The notes beneath the pieces are model-generated. The model was not told the DNA's origin. It made no database searches and was given only the letters and a program-made list of their open reading frames with translations. This document shows positions 19,297 through 33,748 of a stretch of 64,000 nucleotides of DNA, piece by piece. A program made the translations under genes and the position numbers. Position 1 is the stretch's first letter; each line of letters starts with the position of its first letter. This stretch comes from Planctomyces sp. SH-PL62 (GTDB lineage: Bacteria > Planctomycetota > Planctomycetia > Isosphaerales > Isosphaeraceae). The stretch covers positions 62,001 through 126,000 of the forward strand of contig NZ_CP011273.1 in NCBI RefSeq assembly GCF_001610895.1, written 5' to 3'.

Positions 19297-22200
19297 TTAC
19301 CGCGAGGTGACGGCCTTGGACTTGTCGCCGGGCTTGGCGAGGGCGCCGTGGGTCGCTTCCTCGTGGCCGATCCAGTCGATGAGGATCGGGGTGGCGATGT
19401 AGACGGTGCTGTAGGTTCCGCTGAGGAAGCCGACGACCAGGGCGAAGGCGAAGCCGTGGAGCCCCTCGCCGCCGAGGACGTAGAGGACGACGACGACGAG
19501 CCAGGCGGTCAGCGACGTCAGGATCGTCCGGCTGAGGGTCTGGTTGATGGCGGCGTTGACCAGCTGCGGGGTGAGGTGGGGGGTCTTCCCCTTGATCTCC
19601 CGGATGCGGTCGAAGATGACGATCGTGTCGTTCACCGAGAAGCCGATGAGCGTGAGGAAGGCCGCGACGATCGGCAGGTCGATCTTGAACTGGTCGATCA
19701 TCAGGAGCGTGTTCAGGCCCGGGACGAGCGCCAGCCAGTAGCTGACGGCGATGGCCCCCAGGGTGATGAGGACGTCGTGGACGACGGCGAGCACCGCGGC
19801 CAGGCCGTAGGTGAACGAGTGGAACCGCCACCAGAGGTAGGCCACGATGATGATCCAGCTCGCCACGGTGGCGATCAGGGCCAGGGTCCGGGTCTCCGAG
19901 GCGACCGTGCTGCCGAAGTTGGCGATCCGCTCGAAGAGCATGTCGCGGTTGTTCGCCAGCGAGTCCTTCAGGGCTTCCAGCTCGGCCTTGGCGACGTCGG
20001 GCTCCAGGTCGGTCTTGAGGATCAGCTTGGTCCCCTCGGCGCGGGCCTTGCCGCCGGAGCCGGCGGCGGTGATCTCGAACCGCGAGTTCGGGTTGACGAT
20101 CCCGGCGGCGTCGAGGACCCGGGCGAACTCGGACGAGACCACCTGGGCCGGGGGCTGGGTGCTGTTGAACGAGGTGGTGTTGAACGCCAGCTCGTACTCG
20201 CGGCCGCCGGCGAACCGGGCGACCATCGAGGGGGCGGACTTCGCCGCGGCGGACGCCGACGCCGGGGCCGCGGGCTCGCCGATCGCCTTCTCGGGGCCGA
20301 CGGTCATGTCGATCTTGGCGAGCGACGGGCCGAACGCCTCGATGATCTGGTTCTTGACCTTCTGCGAGTCCTGCTCGGTGGTCCGGATGTTGAACCGGGC
20401 CGCCTGCTCCTTCTGGTTCTGGCTGACGCGGAGGCTCTCGATGGTGACGTCGGGGAGGACGCCGGCCTTCTCGCGGACGAGCTCGGTCCGCTGGCTGGAG
20501 GAGAGGCTGCGGACGGTGGCGTCGGCCTCGTTCAGCCGGATGGTCACCAGGGTGCCGCCGGTGAAGTCGATGTTGTACATCGTCCGGCCGCGGGCGAAGA
20601 ACGCCCCCAGGCCCAGCAGGATCACGACGAGGGAGACGGCCATGCAGTAGTAGCGGGGGCCGACGAAGTCGATGTTCGTCTTGTCCAGCATCTGGCGGAA
20701 GTGCAATTCGCGCAGCCAGCCGCGGGCGTAGGCGGTCTCGAAGATGTGCCGCGACATGAAGACGGCGGTGAACAGGTTCCAGAGCATGCCCAGGATCATC
20801 GTCAGGGCGAAGCCCTTCACTTCCTCGGTGCCGACGGCGTAGAGCACGATCGCCGCGAGCAGGTTGGTGACGTGGGAGTCGAAGATCGTCACCCAGGCCC
20901 GGTTGAAGCCGTTGCGGATCTGCTGCGCCAGCCCGGCGCCGCGCTCCTTCTCCTCGCGCATGCGTTCGAAGACCAGCACGTTGGCGTCGACCGCCATGCC
21001 GATCGTCAGGGCGAGCCCGGCCAGGCCGGGGAGCGAGAAAGTGGCCTGGATGAAGGCCATCGAGCCCACCAGGAGGATCATGTTGACGACCAGGGCCACC
21101 ACCGCCACCACGCCGGCGAAGCGGTAGTAGATGATCATGAAGACGGGGACGACGAGCATCGAGACCCAGATGGCCCGCCAGCCCTTGGCGATCGAGTCCT
21201 CGCCGAGCGTCGGGCCGACGTTCTCCTCCTGGAGCGGCGTCGGGTCGAGGCTCGCCGGCAGGCTGCCGGCCTGGAGGATGTTGATGAGGTGCTGGACCTC
21301 CTTGACCTTGAACCCCTGGCCGCCCCCCTCGATGATCCCCGAGTCGCGGATCTCCGAGTTGATCGACGGGGCCGACATCACCAGGTTGTCCAGCAGGATC
21401 GCCAGCTGGTAGCGGAAGGCGTCCCCCTCCTCGGGCAGGTGCTCGCGGGTGAGCTGGCCGAAGCGGCGGGCGCCCTGGCGGTTGAACTGGAAGCCGACCG
21501 CCGGCTGGAGCTTCTCGTCGGTCTGCATGTAGGCCCGCGAGAGGTACTTGCCGGTGACGTCCTGGCGGTCCTGGACGCAGAGGATGTAGGTCTCGGTGCG
21601 GCCCTCGGAGACCTTCTCCTCGCGGACGATCGGGTCGCCCGGGCGGGGGTTGGTCGGGTCGCCGCCGCGGATCCCGCTGGGGTTGTACTCGACCCGGTAC
21701 GAGGCGATCGAGCCGAGGTTGTGGGGCTCGGCCAGGGTGAGCGTGTCGTTCGTGTTCCGGAGGATCGGGATCGCCAGCGTCTTGTCGGCGCCGGTCGCGT
21801 CCTTGCCGGTCAGGACGACTTCCACCCCGGCGTAGAGGTCGCGCTTCCAGTTCTGCTGGGGGTCGGTGATCGAGGCCTCGGTGAACTGGGGCTCGGTCCC
21901 GGTGGAGACCTCGCCCAGCCGCGCCCACTTGTAGCGCGCGGGGGGCTTGGCCAGGCCGCCGGGGCCCATCGCGCGGGCGATCGCCTCGGAGTCGTGCTTC
22001 TGGTTGGCGAGGATCCGGAACTCAAGCGAGCCGACGTCCGTCAGCATCTTCTTGATCTCCTCGACCTCCTCCGGGCTCGCCTTCGGCAGGATGATCTCGA
22101 TCCGGTTGTTGCCGATGTTGCGGATCGGCGTCTCCTTGACCCCCTGCGGGTCGGCCCGCTGCTTCAGCGCGGCGATCAGCTCCTCCATGTTGAAGTTGCC

Positions 22201-22359
22201 GGACGACGTACTCTCCTTGGCGACCTCGTAGACGAGGATCGTCCCTCCGGAGAGGTCGATGCCCAGCTTCAACTTCTTCTCGGGGGGAGACATGGCGATC
22301 AGGCCCAGGAGGGTCGATCCCACGATCAAGATGCTCTTCCAGTTCACAAGGTTCTTCAT
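19297..22359 (-). CDS. secDF: Protein translocase SecDF fusion
   Basis: Proton-driven accessory of the Sec translocon that pulls exported proteins across the inner membrane. The 1020-residue product joins SecD (residues 1 to about 555) and SecF (from about 560). The SecD half has an N-terminal helix, LGIDLSGGT, the large periplasmic P1 region and the helix block GLALTIGMAVDANVLVFERM. The SecF half has NIDFTGGT, a shorter periplasmic domain and LIGFSVNDTIVIFDRIRE. There are two six-helix sets. Fusion is common in planctomycetes and Firmicutes. It lies 245 bases after yajC and is followed by a strong terminator. Confidence 0.96.
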   Translation of the reverse strand: MKNLVNWKSILIVGSTLLGLIAMSPPEKKLKLGIDLSGGTILVYEVAKESTSSGNFNMEELIAALKQRADPQGVKETPIRNIGNNRIEIILPKASPEEVEEIKKMLTDVGSLEFRILANQKHDSEAIARAMGPGGLAKPPARYKWARLGEVSTGTEPQFTEASITDPQQNWKRDLYAGVEVVLTGKDATGADKTLAIPILRNTNDTLTLAEPHNLGSIASYRVEYNPSGIRGGDPTNPRPGDPIVREEKVSEGRTETYILCVQDRQDVTGKYLSRAYMQTDEKLQPAVGFQFNRQGARRFGQLTREHLPEEGDAFRYQLAILLDNLVMSAPSINSEIRDSGIIEGGGQGFKVKEVQHLINILQAGSLPASLDPTPLQEENVGPTLGEDSIAKGWRAIWVSMLVVPVFMIIYYRFAGVVAVVALVVNMILLVGSMAFIQATFSLPGLAGLALTIGMAVDANVLVFERMREEKERGAGLAQQIRNGFNRAWVTIFDSHVTNLLAAIVLYAVGTEEVKGFALTMILGMLWNLFTAVFMSRHIFETAYARGWLRELHFRQMLDKTNIDFVGPRYYCMAVSLVVILLGLGAFFARGRTMYNIDFTGGTLVTIRLNEADATVRSLSSSQRTELVREKAGVLPDVTIESLRVSQNQKEQAARFNIRTTEQDSQKVKNQIIEAFGPSLAKIDMTVGPEKAIGEPAAPASASAAAKSAPSMVARFAGGREYELAFNTTSFNSTQPPAQVVSSEFARVLDAAGIVNPNSRFEITAAGSGGKARAEGTKLILKTDLEPDVAKAELEALKDSLANNRDMLFERIANFGSTVASETRTLALIATVASWIIIVAYLWWRFHSFTYGLAAVLAVVHDVLITLGAIAVSYWLALVPGLNTLLMIDQFKIDLPIVAAFLTLIGFSVNDTIVIFDRIREIKGKTPHLTPQLVNAAINQTLSRTILTSLTAWLVVVVLYVLGGEGLHGFAFALVVGFLSGTYSTVYIATPILIDWIGHEEATHGALAKPGDKSKAVTSR

Positions 22360-22604: not shown

Positions 22605-22949
22605 TCAGTCCGACCCCGGTCCTTCCAGGACCCGGACGACGCTGGCGCGGGTGACGCTCATCTTGACCCCCTTGTCGTCGTCGATCCGCAGGCCGATGCG
22701 GTCCGACGACGGGTCGATCGAGACGACGGTCCCGTAGATCCCACCGGCGGTGACGACCTTGTCGTTCTTCTTCAGGGAGTCGATCATCGCCCGCCGCTTC
22801 TTCTCCTGCTCCTTCTGGGGCATGTAGATCATGAAATAGAAGAGCAAGGGGATCGGCATCAGGAACAGGAGCGTCGTCCAGTTGCTGGGCGGCGCGCCCC
22901 CGTCCTGGGCGAAGAGGGGGCCGATCACGTCGAACAATCCTGGCATCAT
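22605..22949 (-). CDS. yajC: Preprotein translocase subunit YajC
   Basis: Small single-helix membrane protein associated with SecDF. The 114-residue product has an N-terminal transmembrane helix (LLFLMPIPLLFYFMIYM) directly followed by PQKEQEKKRRAMIDSLKKND and the VTAGGIYGTV domain, matching the family. Two ATG codons are adjacent, so the start is uncertain by one residue, and no strong ribosome site is visible. It sits between tgt and secDF, the standard order. Confidence 0.95.
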   Translation of the reverse strand: MMPGLFDVIGPLFAQDGGAPPSNWTTLLFLMPIPLLFYFMIYMPQKEQEKKRRAMIDSLKKNDKVVTAGGIYGTVVSIDPSSDRIGLRIDDDKGVKMSVTRASVVRVLEGPGSD

Positions 22950-23049: not shown

Positions 23050-24216
23050 CTAGGGTCCCAGGGCTTCAAGCACTTCCAACCGCAACTGGACGAATCGGCC
23101 GGCGCGGATCGCTTCCCGCGCCCGCCGCATCAGGCGGTGGAGATACGCCAGGTTGTGGATCGACGCCAGGATCGGCCCCAGCATCTCCTTCGCCAGGAAC
23201 AGGTGCCGCAGGTAGGCCCGCGAGAACTTCGCGCAGGCGAGGCAGTCGCACCCCTCCTCCAGCGGCCGGGGGTCGCGGGCGTGGGCCGCGTTGCGGAGCT
23301 TCACCGGGCCCTGGTCGGTGAAGCAGGTGGCGTTGCGGCCGTTGCGGGTGGGCATCACGCAGTCGAACAGGTCGATCCCCGCCAGCACGGCGTCGAGCAG
23401 GTCCTGCGGGCGGCCCACCCCCATCAGGTAACGGGGACGGTCCTCCGGGAGCCGGTGGACGGAGACGTCGAGCGCCCGGCGGACCTCCTCGCGGCTCTCG
23501 CCCACGCTCACGCCGCCGACCGCGTAGCCGTCGAAATCCATCGCGATCAGGGCCTCGGCGCAGCGGGCCCGGAGGTCCTCGTGGGAGCCCCCCTGGACGA
23601 TGCCGAAGAGGGCCTGGTCGGGGCGTCGCCTCGCCTCCCGGCAGCGGCCGGCCCAGGCGATCGTGCGGTTCACGGCCGCCTCCACGTCCGCCTTGGCGGC
23701 CGGCAGGGCCGGGCACTGGTCCAGGCACATCGCGACGTCCGCCCCCAGGGCCTCCTGGATCGCCACGGCGCGCTCGGGGGTCAGCTCCAGCAGCCGGCCG
23801 TCGAGGTGCGACCGGAACGTCGCCCCCCGGTCGGTGATCTTCGCCTTGTCGGCCAGGCTGAAGACCTGGAACCCCCCCGAATCCGTGAGGATGGGGCCGT
23901 CCCAGGCCATGAAGCGATGCAGGCCCCCCATCGCCGCGACCGTCTCCTCGCCGGGGCGGAGGGCCAGGTGGTAGGTGTTGGCGAGCACCATCCGCGAGCC
24001 GACGTCGCGGAGCTGGTCCGGGGTCAGGCCCTTCACGGTCGCCTGCGTGCCGACCGGCATGAAGGCGGGGGTCTCGACCGGGCCGTGGAGGGTGTCGAGC
24101 CTCCCCGCGCGGGCGGCCGAACCGGCGTCGCGCGCCGTCGCCGTGAAGCGGACGGGGCGGACGCCGGGCGTGGGGCTCGCGGCGAGGGGCGCGGCGGGGG
24201 CGGTTTCCGGGCTCAA
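23050..24216 (-). CDS. tgt: tRNA-guanine transglycosylase
   Basis: Exchanges guanine-34 of GUN anticodon tRNAs for preQ1 in queuosine synthesis. The 388-residue product shows [22 protein letters not shown], the catalytic [17 protein letters not shown], the nucleophile region [15 protein letters not shown], and the zinc site [17 protein letters not shown]. The usual FDEC is here LDQC, a small variation. The gene starts 7 bases after the TPR-alpha-CTD gene and precedes yajC and secDF, a conserved arrangement. Confidence 0.95.
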
Positions 24217-24223
24217 GGTGGGG

Positions 24224-25615
24224 TCAGTCGTTCTTGAGTTTCAGGCCGAGGGCCGAGAGCTTGTCGCGGACCTCGTTGAGCGAGGTGACGCCGAAGTTCT
24301 TGCACTCCAGCAGGTCGTCCCCCGACCGCTTGGTCAGGTCGCCCACGGTCTGCAAGTTCAGCTTGCTCATGCACTTGCGCGCCCGCACCGACAGGCTCAG
24401 CTCGCTGATCGGCTTGCTCAGCATGGCCTGGACCTCGGGCGAGACCTCCTGCGCCGGCTCGGCGCGGTGGTCGTTCCCGCCGGGGCCGCCGCGCTCGGCG
24501 CCTTCCAGCGCCATGCCCAGCCGGACCCCCTTGGAGCGCATCATCTCCTTGATCTCGGCCAGCGAGGTCTCGCCGAAGTTCTTGGAGGCCAGCAGCGCCG
24601 CCTCGGTCGTCCGGGTGAGGTCGCCCAGCGTCCGGATGTTCATCTTGCGGAGGCAGTTGCGGCTCCGCACCGACAGCTCGAAGTCGGTGACCGGGATCTC
24701 CAGCAGCTGCTTGAGGACGGTGTAGCCCTTCTCGGCTTCCTCGTCGTAGTACATCCCCTTGCTGGCCTGGCAGTCCTTGAAGAACAGCCGGGCGCGGGGG
24801 TGGTTGGGGTCGTAGTCGAGCACGTGCCGGTAGCACTGCTCGGCCTCCCGGAACTTCATCTCGTCCTCGTACAGCACGCCCAGGTTGATCCAGGCGGCGA
24901 GCGGCACCGGGGGCCGTTCGGTGCACCGCTTGTAGAAGTCGACGGCGGCGTCGTCGTTGCCGTAGAGGTCGTTGATGTAGGCCAGCTCGAAGAGCGCGCC
25001 GTTGTGGTCGCGGTCGAGGGCCAGGGCCTTCTCCAGCTCGGCGGCGGCCAGCTCCAGGTCCCCTTCGGCGGCGAGCACCGCGCCCTGCTGGAAGTGGTAC
25101 TCGGCCGACGAGCCGACCGACGTCTCCAGCCCCCCGAGGATCGTCTTGGCCTCCTGGAACTTCCCGGCGGCCTGCTCGAACTTGCCGTTGGACTGGTCGG
25201 CCTGGCCCAGCCGACGCAGGGCGCCGGCGCGGCGAAGCTCCGAGTTCTTGGCGTCGTAGCCGAGCTTGGCCGACTTCGCGAAGGCGTCGGCCGCCTCCTG
25301 GTAACGCTGGAGGTTCTCCGCGGCCAGGCCCTGGAAATACAGGGCCATCCCGACGTCGCCGGCGCGCTTCAGGTTGTCCAGGCCGGCGGCGTATCGGCCC
25401 AGCAGGACCTCGCCGACGCCCAGGCGGAGGTTGGTCTCCTGGCTGCCGCTGGGCTGCTGCTTCTCGCGGTCGCGGATCGTCGCCACGGCGTCGCGGAGGG
25501 TCCGATAGCGGGACGGATCGCGGTTGAGCACCTCGCGCAGATCGGCGACGGCCGAAACATCGAAGGGCGTGCGATCCATGATCGCGCGGACGTCCGTGGT
25601 CATCATCTCAGTCAT
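24224..25615 (-). CDS. TPR protein with two C-terminal RNA polymerase alpha-CTD domains
   Basis: A 463-residue protein. Residues about 60-300 are tetratricopeptide repeats (for example [20 protein letters not shown] and [20 protein letters not shown]). Residues about 307-368 closely copy the alpha C-terminal domain of RNA polymerase ([33 protein letters not shown]), and 402-461 hold a second copy ([32 protein letters not shown]). Residues equivalent to E. coli alpha R265 (R317, R411), C269, G296, S299 and E302 are kept in both, and N268 only in the first, so DNA minor-groove binding is plausible. There is no polymerase-assembly domain. It leads the run with tgt, yajC and secDF. Role in transcription is inferred. 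Confidence 0.88.
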
Positions 25616-25936
25616 CGCCGAATAATCTCCCTGTTCCGCCCGCGTCCAGGCCGATCGCTCCCGCGCGCGCCGGGCCGCGACGACCTCTCGTCGGCGGGTG
25701 AATCCCAGATCGTACGCGAATTCCCTTGACTTGTCAAAGTCCGGCGTAACGCGCGCCGGGCGGCCTCGGCCGCCCGGAACTCCCCGGCCCTCCTCGGGCG
25801 CGGCCCGGCGATCTCGGGCGAATCCGGCCCCGCGAGGGTCCCCCCGACGCTATCTTCATAGAGGGTCGGCGATCGCGCGACGGCTCGCATCCCGTCGGGC
25901 CGACCGGCCGGCAAGAAGACCATCGGGGACCCGGAT
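25616..25936. other. Divergent promoter region
   Basis: About 320 bases between the divergent TPR-alpha-CTD and caspase-fold genes. TTGACTTGTCAAAG at about 25729-25742 contains the inverted repeat TTGAC/GTCAA, also a possible -35-like box or operator. No matching -10 was found. Confidence 0.35.
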
Positions 25937-27523
25937 ATGCGAATCGGAATCGGCCTGTTGGGAATCCTGGCGGCGCTGACGACGGCGCGGGCCGACGCGG
26001 GGACGCACGTCGTGACGTTCGGCGGCGGGCCGCCGTCGCACAACCAGATCTCGCTGGAGCGGAACGTCGCCTACTTCCAGCGCGTGCTCTCCAAGCTCGG
26101 CCTGGGCGGGATCCGCCACGACATCTACTTCGGCGACGGCGGCGCGGGCCCTTCGGTCCAGCACCGGATGCCCGAAGGGGACGAGCAGCGGCTGGCCAGG
26201 GCCCTGGGCCTGATCCTCTTCAACGACGACGACGGCGACCTGCGCTACTCCACGGTCGACATCCCCGGCCTGGTCGGCCCGTCGAGCGTCGCCAACCTCG
26301 ACGCCTGGTTCGAGCAGGTCGGCCGCGCCCTGCCGCCCGGCGAGCGGCTCTTCTTCTACTTCACCGGCCACGGCGGGCCCGACCCCAAGGGGGGCGATCA
26401 GCCCCGGAACACGTCGCTGGTCATGCCCGGGACCCCCAACGCCTACACCGTCGATCGGCTCGCCAGGCAGCTCGACGCGATGAGCCCGGACGTCGACGTG
26501 ACCCTGGTGATGGTCCAGTGCTACTCGGGCGGGTTCGCCAACGTGATCTACAACGAAGGCGACCCGGACAAGGGGTTCGCCCCCAACCCCCGCGCCGGCT
26601 TCTTCTCAACGATCGCCTCGCGGACCGCCGCCGGCTGCACGCCGGACATCTCCGAAGAGGACTACCACGAGTTCTCCACGTCCTTCTTCGAAGCCCTCGC
26701 CGGCGAGACCCGCACCGGGAAGCCCGTCGTCAGGCCCGACTTCGACGGCGACGGCCGGACCTCCTACGCCGAGGCGTTCGCCCACGTCCTGCTCTCGTCC
26801 GACACGATCGACATCCCCACCACGACCTCCGACCGCCTGCTCCGCGACCACAGCCGCTTCGCCCTCCCCGAGGACGACCCGGACCTCGGCCTGCTCCCCC
26901 AGGACGCCCCCTGGTCCGCCGTGCTCGCCGCCGCCGACCCCGCCCAGAAGGCGGCCCTCGAAGGGCTCTCGCAGATCCTCGGCCTCGACGGCGAGGACCG
27001 CCTGGCCCGCGCCCGCGAGCAGGCCAGGAGGATCGACCCCCGCCGCAACAACGGCCGCGGCCGGGGCCGGAACCGCCCCGCGAACCGCCCCGACGCCGCC
27101 CAGGCCGATCCCCCGCCCCGCCGCGAATACACCGCGCAGGCCCCGCCGACCGGGCCGAACGCCGCCCGCCGATCGAACCCCGCCGTGGGCCGCCTCCGCG
27201 CCGCCCTCGCCGAGCGCTGGCCCGAGCTGACCGTGCCGCTCCACCCCGAAGTCCCCCGGATCGTCGCTGAGCAGTCCGACGCCATCCGCCGCTTCCTCGA
27301 AGCCCATCCCGACTACCCGGCCATCTCCGGCCGACTCTCCCGCCGCCCCGCCCCTCTCGGCGACGACCCCGAGCGCACCTGGGTCAAGTACCAGCGCCTC
27401 CTCGAACGCGCCGACACCGTCATCCTCGCCGCCAACCTCCCCAAGACCGGCGACCCCGAAGCCCTCGGCGTCCTCCGCCGCCTCCTCGAACTGGAATCCC
27501 GCACCCTCGCCCCGGGCTCCTGA
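25937..27523 (+). CDS. Secreted caspase-fold (C13/C14-like) protein with EF-hand
   Basis: A 528-residue protein with a signal peptide (first 20 residues, ending ARAD). A caspase-like core follows: hydrophobic strand and His in FFYFTGHGG (His145), then strand and Cys in LVMVQCYSGGF (Cys195). The QCYSGG pattern resembles legumain/C13 and bacterial caspase-like enzymes. Residues 268-279 (DFDGDGRTSYAE) are a perfect EF-hand calcium loop, suggesting calcium dependence. From about 345 the sequence is an Arg/Pro/Asn-rich linker and a helical C-terminus unlike known domains. Target unknown. Export suggests an extracytoplasmic protease rather than a suicide effector. Confidence 0.8.
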   Translation: MRIGIGLLGILAALTTARADAGTHVVTFGGGPPSHNQISLERNVAYFQRVLSKLGLGGIRHDIYFGDGGAGPSVQHRMPEGDEQRLARALGLILFNDDDGDLRYSTVDIPGLVGPSSVANLDAWFEQVGRALPPGERLFFYFTGHGGPDPKGGDQPRNTSLVMPGTPNAYTVDRLARQLDAMSPDVDVTLVMVQCYSGGFANVIYNEGDPDKGFAPNPRAGFFSTIASRTAAGCTPDISEEDYHEFSTSFFEALAGETRTGKPVVRPDFDGDGRTSYAEAFAHVLLSSDTIDIPTTTSDRLLRDHSRFALPEDDPDLGLLPQDAPWSAVLAAADPAQKAALEGLSQILGLDGEDRLARAREQARRIDPRRNNGRGRGRNRPANRPDAAQADPPPRREYTAQAPPTGPNAARRSNPAVGRLRAALAERWPELTVPLHPEVPRIVAEQSDAIRRFLEAHPDYPAISGRLSRRPAPLGDDPERTWVKYQRLLERADTVILAANLPKTGDPEALGVLRRLLELESRTLAPGS

Positions 27524-30599: not shown

Positions 30600-30923
30600 G
30601 ACGAAGCACGAGCCGCCGGGCCGCGAACCGTCCGGCGTCCTGGCGGCTTGGAAGAAAGCTTCCCTGTGGCCAGGCACTGCATCTAGAGGATTTAGGCAAT
30701 GCGCGGGGGGCAAGACCGCTTAGATCCCCCCACTTTCCTGTTTGGGTGCCTGGACAATCGGAAAATCCCAAATAGGGAACGCTTCTGCCGCAGGATGCCA
30801 TCCAAGTAGTTATGGATTTTATATGGCCGGGCGCGGCTCCTCTAGCCTGCCCCCTGCGAGCATGGTAGTTTGATCGGTCGGTTTTTGTGCGAGGTCAAGG
30901 GGCGGCGGGCTGGGCGACAACTC
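30600..30923. other. Intergenic region of lower GC at the edge of the nuclease/ATPase module
   Basis: About 320 bases with visibly lower GC than the flanks. TTATAT at 30819-30824 could be a -10 box for the nuclease gene, but no good -35 sits 17 bases before it. The frame of the following gene is open from TTG at 30870. The composition change is consistent with the border of an acquired segment. Confidence 0.4.
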
Positions 30924-32000
30924 ATGAGTGTCAAAGACTGCCTCGTCAACCGCCCGCGCGAAGCCAGCGGCGCAATGGCGGCCAACCGCTTCGACTTCCA
31001 GCGGGATTGGGCGCTCTGCCACCTGTTCGAGTTGCAGGAAGGCGGCAAGGACTACGTGCTCGTGATGGAGCACCACGACGACGTGGTGGTCCTGGATTCG
31101 CCCGTCGACCCGAAGGCGGTCGATTGCTACCAGATCAAGACGGCGGATTCGCACTGGAGCCTGACCGCCCTGCTCAGGCCGAAGAAGCTGAAGAAGGCTA
31201 AGGGCAAGTCCATCCTCGGCAAGATGTACGAGAACTGCCTGGTCTTCAAGGCGAGCGTCCGGTCGGTCAACCTGGTCAGCAACTACCCCTACCGGATGGA
31301 CCTGAAGTGCGGGACCAAGTCCGACACGAAGGACACGATCTGCCTGAACGAGTTGGCCGACGAAGAGGCGGACGGCGTGATCGACAAGATCATGAACGAG
31401 CACGGTCTGACCGCCCCGCCGGTCTTCCTTGACCTGGCCAAGCTCGTCGTCACCGCGCTCAGCGTCCACGACCACGCGGACCACGCGAAGGGCAAATTGG
31501 TGGCGTTCCTCGAGCGGGAGCGGCCTGGGATTTCCATCGCGGTCGGTCCGCTCTATAACACGCTCTACGACGAGCTCAGGCGGAAGGCGAACTACGAGAA
31601 GCAGGGGCTGGATTACGACGGGGTCCTCAAGCACAAGGCGATCTCGCGGGCGCAGTTCACGGGTTTGATCTCGAAACTCCGGGAGGAGAAGAAGTTCGAG
31701 CGCGAGTGGCCAGCCATCGACGCGAAGCTGGCCTCGGAAGACGTGGGGTTTCGGGAGCTGATCCAGATCCGCGACGCCTGCCGCCTCTTCGAGATGGAGC
31801 GGATGCAGGACTGGAACGTCGTGCTTGCCCAGACCCGCCAGGCCGTCCAGGCTGCCGCCGACGACGCCTGCGCCGCGAAGCTTTCCGCAACGCTGGACCA
31901 TTGCGTCGCGCGGGTGCGGGCCCTGAGAATCAAGGGGTCGGAAATCTACGGCAACCCCTACCTGAAGGCCATCGCCCTCTTCCACCTATATGCTTATTAA
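30924..32000 (+). CDS. DUF4297 (Cap4-type) dsDNA nuclease domain protein
   Basis: A 358-residue protein whose N-terminus fits DUF4297: REASGAMAANRFDFQRDWAL, then an acidic EHHDDVVVLD (residues 49-58), and DCYQIKT (68-73), which together make a PD-(D/E)xK-like site with Q-x-K in the last position as in Cap4 effectors. The rest is helical with no SAVED domain, and may act as a partner-binding region. Frame is open from a TTG at 30870; ATG at 30924 is preferred, and ATG at 30975 is possible. It is 41 bases before an SMC-like ATPase gene, the arrangement of Lamassu/ABC-3C defence. DNA cleavage on phage sensing is inferred. Confidence 0.82.
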   Translation: MSVKDCLVNRPREASGAMAANRFDFQRDWALCHLFELQEGGKDYVLVMEHHDDVVVLDSPVDPKAVDCYQIKTADSHWSLTALLRPKKLKKAKGKSILGKMYENCLVFKASVRSVNLVSNYPYRMDLKCGTKSDTKDTICLNELADEEADGVIDKIMNEHGLTAPPVFLDLAKLVVTALSVHDHADHAKGKLVAFLERERPGISIAVGPLYNTLYDELRRKANYEKQGLDYDGVLKHKAISRAQFTGLISKLREEKKFEREWPAIDAKLASEDVGFRELIQIRDACRLFEMERMQDWNVVLAQTRQAVQAAADDACAAKLSATLDHCVARVRALRIKGSEIYGNPYLKAIALFHLYAY

Positions 32001-32041
32001 CAACTATAGGAAGCTTGTTCGCAACCTACGGAAGAAGACGG

Positions 32042-33748
32042 ATGCCAAGCTTCTTTTTAAAAAATCTGACCCTGCTCTCCCTGCAAGAAAAGCGGGGGAG
32101 AAGGTTCTCGTTCCACCCAAAGACGACGATAGTCAAGGGTGATAACGACACCGGCAAGTCGTCGCTCCTGAAGAGCATCTACCGCTGCTTCGGTGCCGCC
32201 CCCGCCGTCACCCACGCGAAATGGAAGGACGCCCGCGTCATCGGGGTCCTGACCTTCGCGGTGGACGGCAGGACGTTCCACGTCCTCCAGAACCAGACGC
32301 GTTACAGCTTCTTCGACGCCGACCGGCAGCACCTCGAGTCCTTCGATTCCGTCACCAACGGGGTCGCGCCCTACTTCGCCCGGCTGATGGGGTTCGGGTT
32401 GAAGCTGCCGACGCGCAAGGGGGACCTGGTCACGCCGCCGCCCGCCTACCTGCTCCTGCCCTTCTACGTCGACCAGGACGCGGGCTGGAAGAGCAGTTGG
32501 TCGTCCTTCGCCCGGCTGGACCAGTTCGCCAACTGGAAGAAGGACCTGGCTGAGTACCACGCGGGGGTGAGGCCGAACGAATACTACCGGGCGAAGGGCT
32601 CGCTGGACTCGCTGCACGAGAAGTTGCAGCCGCTGAACGGCAAGCAGGCGTCGCTCCGGTCGATCCTGCTCGACCTGGAAGAGCGCCTGAAGTCCGCGAC
32701 CTTCGACATGGACATTGAGGCCTATCAGAACGACGTGAAGGAGCTGCTGCTGCTCTGCGACAAGATCAAGAAGCGGGAGGAGCAGCTCCGCGAGCAACTG
32801 GCCCGGCATTATTCCGCGAAGACGGTGGTCGAGACGCAGATCGCCATCGCCAACAGCATGTTGGGCGACCTCCAGGCCGACATCGAGTACATCGTCAAGC
32901 ACGAGACCAAGGACCACATCGACTGCCCGATGTGCGGGGCGGTCTACGAGAATTCGTTCGAGGAGCGGCTGGCCATCGCCCAGGACGAGGACCGCTGCCA
33001 CGAGCTGCTGAGCCAGTTGCAGGACGACTTGATCGAGGTGAACGGCAAGATCGAGAAGACCAGCAACGCGTTCGTGGACACCAAGGCGGATTTCGCCCGG
33101 GTGGACAAGATCCTCAACACGAAGCGAGGGAAGCTGAAGCTGAAGGACTTGATCGAGAACGAGGGCCGGAAGCAGGTCCAACAGATCATCCGCAACGACA
33201 TCGCGGCGGTCGAGGGGCAGATCGCCGAGGTGCAGAAGGAGATAAACGCCGTCAAGGCGGAGATGGCCCTGTACGACAACGCGGAGCGGAGGAAGGCGAT
33301 AACCAAGAAGTTCCGCGAGATGATGGGGAAGTACCTGTTCGAACTGGAGGTCCACAACCTGGCCCACGAGAAGCTGCACGTCTATTCGAGCGTCTCGGAG
33401 ACCGGGAGCGACCTCCCCCGCGCCCTGCTGGCCTATTACTACAGCATCCTCCACCTGATGAAGGAGAATTCGACGGCGGCCTTCTGCCCCATCGTGATCG
33501 ACTCGCCGAACCAGCAGGACCAGGACATAGCCAACCTGAAGAAGATGCTGAGCTTCATCCACGAGCGGCGGCCCAAGGACTCGCAGGTGGTGCTGGGCCT
33601 GGTCGATGACTGCGGGGTCGAGTTCGACGGCAGCGTTATCGAGCTGTCGGACAAGAACCAGCTTTTGCAGACGAAGGGCTACGCCGCGATCTCGGCGGAA
33701 GTACGCGATCTGCTGGACAAGGTCCGCTTGAGCAACTCAGAGGAGTAG
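32042..33748 (+). CDS. SMC/Rad50-like ABC ATPase with zinc hook
   Basis: A 568-residue protein. Walker A is GDNDTGKSS (residues 33-41) and follows FFLKNLTLLS as in SMC/RecN-like heads. Coiled-coil arms flank the hook CPMCG (Cys295, Cys298), like the Rad50 zinc hook. The C-terminal half-head has SETGSDLPRALLAYYYSIL, a divergent signature motif, and Walker B IVIDSPNQQDQD (Asp487). The DSPNQQ ending is typical of conflict-system ABC ATPases rather than true Rad50. GGAAGAAG precedes the ATG at 32042. It is paired with the upstream DUF4297 nuclease, and resembles LmuB or the ABC component of ABC-3C systems. No separate middle subunit (LmuC) was seen. Confidence 0.85.
   Translation: MPSFFLKNLTLLSLQEKRGRRFSFHPKTTIVKGDNDTGKSSLLKSIYRCFGAAPAVTHAKWKDARVIGVLTFAVDGRTFHVLQNQTRYSFFDADRQHLESFDSVTNGVAPYFARLMGFGLKLPTRKGDLVTPPPAYLLLPFYVDQDAGWKSSWSSFARLDQFANWKKDLAEYHAGVRPNEYYRAKGSLDSLHEKLQPLNGKQASLRSILLDLEERLKSATFDMDIEAYQNDVKELLLLCDKIKKREEQLREQLARHYSAKTVVETQIAIANSMLGDLQADIEYIVKHETKDHIDCPMCGAVYENSFEERLAIAQDEDRCHELLSQLQDDLIEVNGKIEKTSNAFVDTKADFARVDKILNTKRGKLKLKDLIENEGRKQVQQIIRNDIAAVEGQIAEVQKEINAVKAEMALYDNAERRKAITKKFREMMGKYLFELEVHNLAHEKLHVYSSVSETGSDLPRALLAYYYSILHLMKENSTAAFCPIVIDSPNQQDQDIANLKKMLSFIHERRPKDSQVVLGLVDDCGVEFDGSVIELSDKNQLLQTKGYAAISAEVRDLLDKVRLSNSEE

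Follow-up and report, generated by a model that had tools for sequence, protein, structure and literature searches.

A planctomycete protein of 463 aa joins a tetratricopeptide repeat (TPR) superhelix to two C-terminal domains that belong, by profile and predicted fold, to the alpha C-terminal domain (alpha-CTD) family of RNA polymerase. Alpha-CTDs are usually regarded as parts of RNA polymerase; here, known domains stand in an unnamed, widely kept combination. We favour, with moderate confidence, the view that the protein is a DNA-binding transcription co-regulator kept across planctomycetes, in which the alpha-CTDs would hold UP-like DNA and the TPR would dock a partner. This view is built on computed domains, predicted fold, residue conservation, occurrence and divergence between the copies, from which we infer the DNA binding, the partner and the direction of the effect.

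The window, i.e., the whole stretch of DNA that was analysed, is 64,000 nucleotides long. A preliminary description had placed an open reading frame at 24224-25615 and given no strand; the frame exists, lies on the minus strand and starts with ATG. The tgt, yajC and secDF genes with which it was said to cluster are all downstream and on the same strand. The features are as follows:

24224..25615, minus strand: CDS of 463 aa, TPR protein with two C-terminal RNA-polymerase alpha-CTDs (ORF list, translation, Pfam)
24752..25441, minus strand: TPR superhelix, residues 59-288 (Pfam TPR matches, AlphaFold2 model)
24515..24712, minus strand: alpha-CTD copy 1, residues 302-367 (Pfam, alignment)
24431..24514, minus strand: linker between the alpha-CTD copies, residues 368-395 (model, alignment)
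24233..24430, minus strand: alpha-CTD copy 2, residues 396-461 (Pfam, alignment)
23050..24216, minus strand: tgt, queuine tRNA-ribosyltransferase, directly downstream of the TPR/alpha-CTD gene
22605..22949, minus strand: yajC
19297..22359, minus strand: secDF, a fused secD-secF
25709..25737, minus strand: sigma70-like promoter TTGACA-17-TACGAT, upstream of the TPR/alpha-CTD gene

The Pfam family PF03118 matches the protein in two stretches, with 138.3 bits against a cut-off of 23.8 (E 6.6e-41). TPR_2 scores 59.6 bits (cut-off 27) and several other TPR models match; together with the helices of the model and TPR structural matches, this identifies a TPR protein. The Pfam scan found no DNA-binding domain besides the alpha-CTDs. 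In the full-length AlphaFold2 model (alignment of 46 sequences, mean pLDDT 89.6), helices extend to approximately residue 305, some of them N-terminal to the TPR superhelix, and are followed by two compact domains. The linker between these, 28 residues here and with a median of 22 across the family, is modelled at pLDDT below 50 for residues 373-390. For a model of the tandem only (37 sequences, mean pLDDT 80.6), each of the 50 PDB matches that Foldseek listed is an entry for RNA polymerase or the alpha-CTD, where the matched chain was taken to be alpha from entry titles and aligned ranges, and VIA-align gave Z values up to 13.8 with an rmsd of 1.1 over 67 residues. Matching by sequence to the PDB yielded 43 distinct sequences for each copy, every one named RNA polymerase alpha, with best values of 4.1e-15 for copy 1 (4.8e-14 to a chain named E. 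coli alpha) and 1.8e-12 for copy 2. Profile, predicted fold and residues therefore bear out the earlier assignment of both domains as alpha-CTDs. Since the tandem model matches RNA polymerase entries, the fold as predicted does not support the possibility, raised at the time, that the domains would prove to be generic helix-hairpin-helix modules. Searches with the full-length fold were filled by TPR proteins and are uninformative on function.

The protein shares with RNA polymerase alpha the sequence family, the predicted fold and most DNA-contact residues of PF03118, but differs in that it has no alpha-NTD and carries its alpha-CTDs in tandem on a TPR protein; moreover, copy 2 has mostly Lys or Arg at positions 268 and 315. 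Pfam found no match to the alpha-NTD families PF01193 and PF01000 in the 463-aa protein, while a true RpoA scanned alongside shows both. Without an alpha-NTD, the protein should not join polymerase as an alpha subunit. Its scores of 137.5 bits for the NCBIfam rpoA equivalog (cut-off 302) and 124.4 for TIGR02027 (cut-off 227.8) are far too low for RpoA, and we rejected an alternative RpoA subunit on both counts. None of the 25 NCBIfam matches listed names the architecture or reaches its cut-off.

Two other known systems offer partial likenesses. AfsR/SARP-type activators are TPR-bearing, transcription-activating factors according to PMC10936776, which often mentions alpha-CTD. Unlike these, the planctomycete protein contains alpha-CTDs itself, and Pfam detected no winged-helix or NTPase domain; an OmpR-type winged-helix domain is absent from the 23 Pfam families matched at E up to 1, which places the protein outside SARP/AfsR. 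Copy 2 weakly matches profiles of the BREX kinase PglW around positions 785-864, an alpha-CTD-like stretch, but the NCBIfam score is 27.9 versus 990 bits and Pfam gives no kinase domain match. Among the papers that queries of an open-access library brought up, none is on a TPR plus tandem alpha-CTD architecture; judged by title and abstract, they deal with other subjects. The main texts of essential-gene papers on Planctopirus limnophila (PMC10632474) and Verrucomicrobium spinosum (PMC12283558) do not mention tetratricopeptide, TPR or rpoA.

To compare residues, we use the numbering of the E. coli alpha-CTD, as given by alignment. Copy 1 of the 463-aa protein retains R265, N268, C269, N294, G296, S299, E302 and G315, as well as D259 and E261; copy 2 retains R265, C269, N294, G296, S299 and E302 and has Lys at 268 and 315. 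The equivalents of R265, C269, G296, S299 and E302 listed in the preliminary description are thus present in both copies. The family comprises 147 tandem frames, which gave 128 distinct copy-1 and 131 distinct copy-2 sequences for comparison with 49 RpoA alpha-CTDs. R265 is invariant (100%) in both copies. Copy 1 further conserves N268 (98%), C269 (97%), N294 and G296 (100% each), S299 (99%) and E302 (100%), and copy 2 conserves N294, G296 and S299 (96% each), E302 (100%) and, to a lesser degree, C269 (77%). At position 268, copy 2 has Lys (83%) or Arg (12%), and at 315, Arg (77%) or Lys (19%). For the DNA-contact set R265, N268, N294, G296, S299 and E302, this amounts to 6/6 in copy 1 and 5/6 in copy 2, with Lys/Arg replacing N268. 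Arg at 267 is typical of copy 1 (96%) and copy 2 (94%) alike, and RpoA has Ser there in 69%. Position 298, which is Lys in E. coli, is Thr in both copies of the 463-aa protein and in the organism's own RpoA, and likewise in 96% of copy 1, 94% of copy 2 and 49/49 planctomycete RpoA sequences.

Nine DNA-face columns are less variable than random column sets, with fractions of random sets scoring as low of 0.00015 for copy 1, 0.0008 for copy 2 and 0.00015 for RpoA, though some of them may be conserved only for the sake of the fold. Together with profile, predicted fold and residues, this makes the UP-element-type DNA contact proposed earlier plausible. Across 16 matched genomes, pairwise identity averages 72% for copy 1, 60% for the RpoA alpha-CTD and 54% for copy 2, and the two copies within one genome are 48% identical. 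A tree of 101 rows, built from few alignment columns, groups the copies with the least possible number of label changes, and 64 of its 98 inner branches are open. According to PMC11434276, R265 and N268 of E. coli alpha contact the backbone and minor groove, and N268T or N268A disrupts function; according to PMC7822876, R265 and N294 enter the minor groove of the UP element, and K291 and K298 make phosphate contacts. Since copy 2 alters N268 and such changes are harmful in E. coli alpha, DNA binding by copy 2 may differ or be absent. The best reading of these sequences is that copy 1 presents the classical alpha-CTD surface and that copy 2 is specialised, being richer in basic residues.

The full protein matches 293/294 Planctomycetota genomes at E up to 1e-3, a count that includes weak matches, possibly to other proteins. 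We therefore applied a stricter test, with the tandem alone, to 98 Planctomycetota genomes with a completeness of 95% or more, of which 97 show no more than 5% contamination. The tandem matches all 98, and in 93/98 both copies lie in one stop-free frame. This recurrence excludes chance and, together with the profile match, led us to reject a chance resemblance or a mis-called frame. Copy 1 only was found in 5/98 genomes (G295, G195, G275, G239 and G088), which share one family code; Pfam counts three alpha-CTDs in G295, so the second copy there may have diverged rather than gone missing. Pfam counts exactly three alpha-CTDs in 83/98 genomes, two in 4 and more than three in 11, where three is the number expected for RpoA plus one tandem. 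The TPR profile was confirmed for the window protein and two relatives (L155 and L182), and the closest named relative is from Paludisphaera soli (92%). The preliminary description had missed this phylum-wide occurrence, along with the divergence of copy 1 from copy 2 and the phage-contig domains that resemble copy 2 (below).

Other alpha-CTD proteins were seen along the way. In L155, L156, L159 and L161, which share one planctomycete family code, the protein stops after copy 1 (371-380 aa as called), with TPRs confirmed in L155. A second unusual alpha-CTD architecture is found in genome G019 (L174:1462-3168), where three alpha-CTD stretches precede a sigma70 region-4 domain. Three planctomycete proteins of 99-135 aa (L171, L172 and L173) comprise barely more than one RpoA-like alpha-CTD and have Lys at 298. 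Searching plasmids with the tandem gave 80 matching records; among these, the 30 listed either are annotated as RpoA or lack annotation under the match, and are thus uninformative on the architecture elsewhere.

On the reading we favour, two alpha-CTDs on a flexible linker would grip A/T-rich minor-groove DNA, e.g., UP elements upstream of promoters, in a manner modelled on the polymerase's own alpha-CTDs. If the analogy applies, copy 1 at least should enable the tandem to hold A/T-rich DNA. The TPR superhelix would dock a protein partner, be it polymerase, sigma, a regulator or another factor, as suggested by the usual role of TPR domains and by the many invariant TPR columns; docking would then add or withhold promoter contacts independently of RpoA. 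We count in favour of this co-regulator the invariant R265, the conservation of the DNA face, the one-frame occurrence in 93/98 genomes, the conservation of copy 1 above that of RpoA and the viral copy-2-like domains. We count against it Thr in place of K298, the N268 change in copy 2, the position of copy 2 as the least conserved domain and the 5/98 genomes with copy 1 only.

Since the effect may be activation or repression, two rivals have to be weighed. The preliminary description had put forward a decoy or a bridging factor. In the first rival, a free alpha-CTD pair would act as a decoy that sits on UP elements or takes up activators destined for RpoA, lowering transcription at alpha-CTD-dependent promoters. 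Alpha-CTDs on a protein that has no alpha-NTD would suit this role, and copy 1 preserves the classical surface, with E286 and G315 at 100% each across the family. However, a TPR conserved over more than 200 residues, with many columns invariant in the alignment of 46 sequences, would be superfluous for a pure decoy, and copy 2 differs from RpoA at 268, 286 and 315 and so is not a faithful mimic. We consider this explanation unlikely.

The second rival draws on the neighbouring genes. Our gene-order survey covered 80 loci, each of at least 9 kb, from 61 near relatives and from other lineages (19 loci, 20 regions having been fetched and one omitted). Tgt is within reach of the TPR/alpha-CTD gene in 53/80 loci, on the same strand every time, YajC in 46/80 and SecDF in 45/80. 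In 47 loci, all from the 61 near relatives, Tgt either starts no more than 300 nt downstream or overlaps with the frame as called, and the gene precedes tgt-yajC-secDF in most near relatives. The -35 stretch of the promoter is present in 2 near relatives and absent from the other 4 aligned. Of the 19 other-lineage loci, 8 have a RuvA-type gene as the first or second gene downstream (2 called by Pfam, the remainder by similarity to those 2), 1 has RuvC directly downstream, and SpoIID-type genes are found at +1 in 3 and at +4 in 3. Pfam, run on a sample of these neighbours, identified RuvA and SpoIID twice each and RuvB, RuvC and QueH once each; the others were called by similarity.

In the window itself, the gene adjoins one for a 528-aa protein at 25937-27523 (plus strand). 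Pfam gave nothing for this protein at E up to 0.01, and PADLOC matched it weakly to a caspase (0.00023); its His-Gly and Gln-Cys-Tyr-Ser-Gly-Gly stretches are reminiscent of caspase-like peptidases. Further along, at 30870-32000 and 31706-33748 (plus strand), PADLOC profiles identify a Lamassu-type anti-phage defence pair, LmuA (DUF4297, 8.3e-93) and LmuB (AAA ATPase, 2.6e-202).

In this second rival, the protein would be a scaffold constantly bound, through the TPR or copy 1, to core polymerase, sigma or the machinery of translation and export, and would thereby connect transcription to the tRNA-modification and Sec functions encoded nearby. The same-strand order with Tgt is consistent with this, as are the retention of D259 (96%) and E261 (99%) in copy 1 and the HPVRSR-containing stretch in which the organism's main sigma factor ends, the first Arg of which we take to correspond to R603 of E. 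coli sigma70. Gene order alone is weak evidence, however, and other lineages have lost the linkage and carry RuvA, RuvC, SpoIID or different genes downstream. Nor do the 261 and 287 columns show special conservation in copy 1, copy 2 or RpoA (0.2 or more of random sets score as low; 0.26 for the 261 columns of copy 1), and we make no strong claim of sigma binding by copy 1. A constant scaffold thus appears improbable to us. Very unlikely is an accessory role in DNA repair or recombination, in which the alpha-CTD fold would bind branched or bent DNA and the TPR recruit repair proteins; the RuvA-type and RuvC neighbours speak for it, but the domains match polymerase alpha by sequence and fold, and bacteria commonly have a cluster in the order ruv-que-tgt-yajC-secDF, so the ruv linkage may reflect an inherited position.

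Scans of IMG/VR revealed alpha-CTD genes on many viral contigs, and free alpha-CTD domains are common there (L229-L296). The best profile for 70 distinct viral domains (L221-L296) is RpoA for 41, copy 2 for 21 and copy 1 for 8, many by small margins, which carry no meaning since the E. coli alpha-CTD, used as control, itself prefers copy 1 by 2.8 bits. Five viral domains prefer copy 2 by at least 12 bits over the next profile: those of L226 (28.0 bits), L221 (25.1), L223 (22.5) and L225 (21.7), and the fourth domain of L227 (12.6); a weak domain of L281 (10.8 bits) and L228 (7.6 bits) come next. The L227 protein (L227:3128-4252, 375 aa), from a viral contig of 198 kb, has four alpha-CTDs in a row, of which the second prefers copy 1 by 20.3 bits. 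The viral proteins thus resemble the planctomycete one in their fit to the copy-2 profile and, on this one contig, in an added copy-1-like domain, but they have no TPR; four of them carry a single domain and the fifth carries four. In the tree, the phage rows fall inside copy 2, without starred support.

Terminase genes lie near the alpha-CTD domain in L145, L226 and L228, and the enzymes of L226 and L145 share 76% identity. L222 lies on the L145 contig and has the same copy-2-like domain as L221. No terminase was found among the proteins scanned for L225 and L227; that these are phages is therefore taken from IMG/VR and, in the case of L227, also from a protein sharing 54% identity with one of L146. 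The single-domain proteins of L145, L146, L225, L226 and L228 have no PHROG family match (0/5 scanned), and the four-domain L227 protein has two weak ones (best 2.2e-5). A terminase search for the phage host matched 2/294 planctomycete genomes at E up to 1e-20, with 29 and 35% identity. The L145 domain matched 11 records of annotated phages: 3 from Salmonella (2 annotated as RpoA, 1 unannotated) and 8 others, unannotated.

A broader scenario is conceivable, though doubtful: an extra factor shared by Planctomycetota might give promoters or sigma an alpha-CTD pair independent of polymerase, with copy 2 specialised towards a new target, and phages, some with contigs of approximately 200 kb, might have taken copy-2-like domains to redirect or block that factor when they infect. 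The viral look-alikes independently hint at a real target for copy 2. Planctomycetes are a phylum noted for unusual cell biology. The presence of the protein in all 98 near-complete genomes and the conservation of copy 1 above that of the polymerase's own alpha-CTD point to a core piece of transcription control, the role of which is directly testable in a genetically tractable planctomycete. A TPR scaffold with two spare DNA-gripping ends of polymerase, together with the viral look-alikes, hints at a new mode of steering gene expression.
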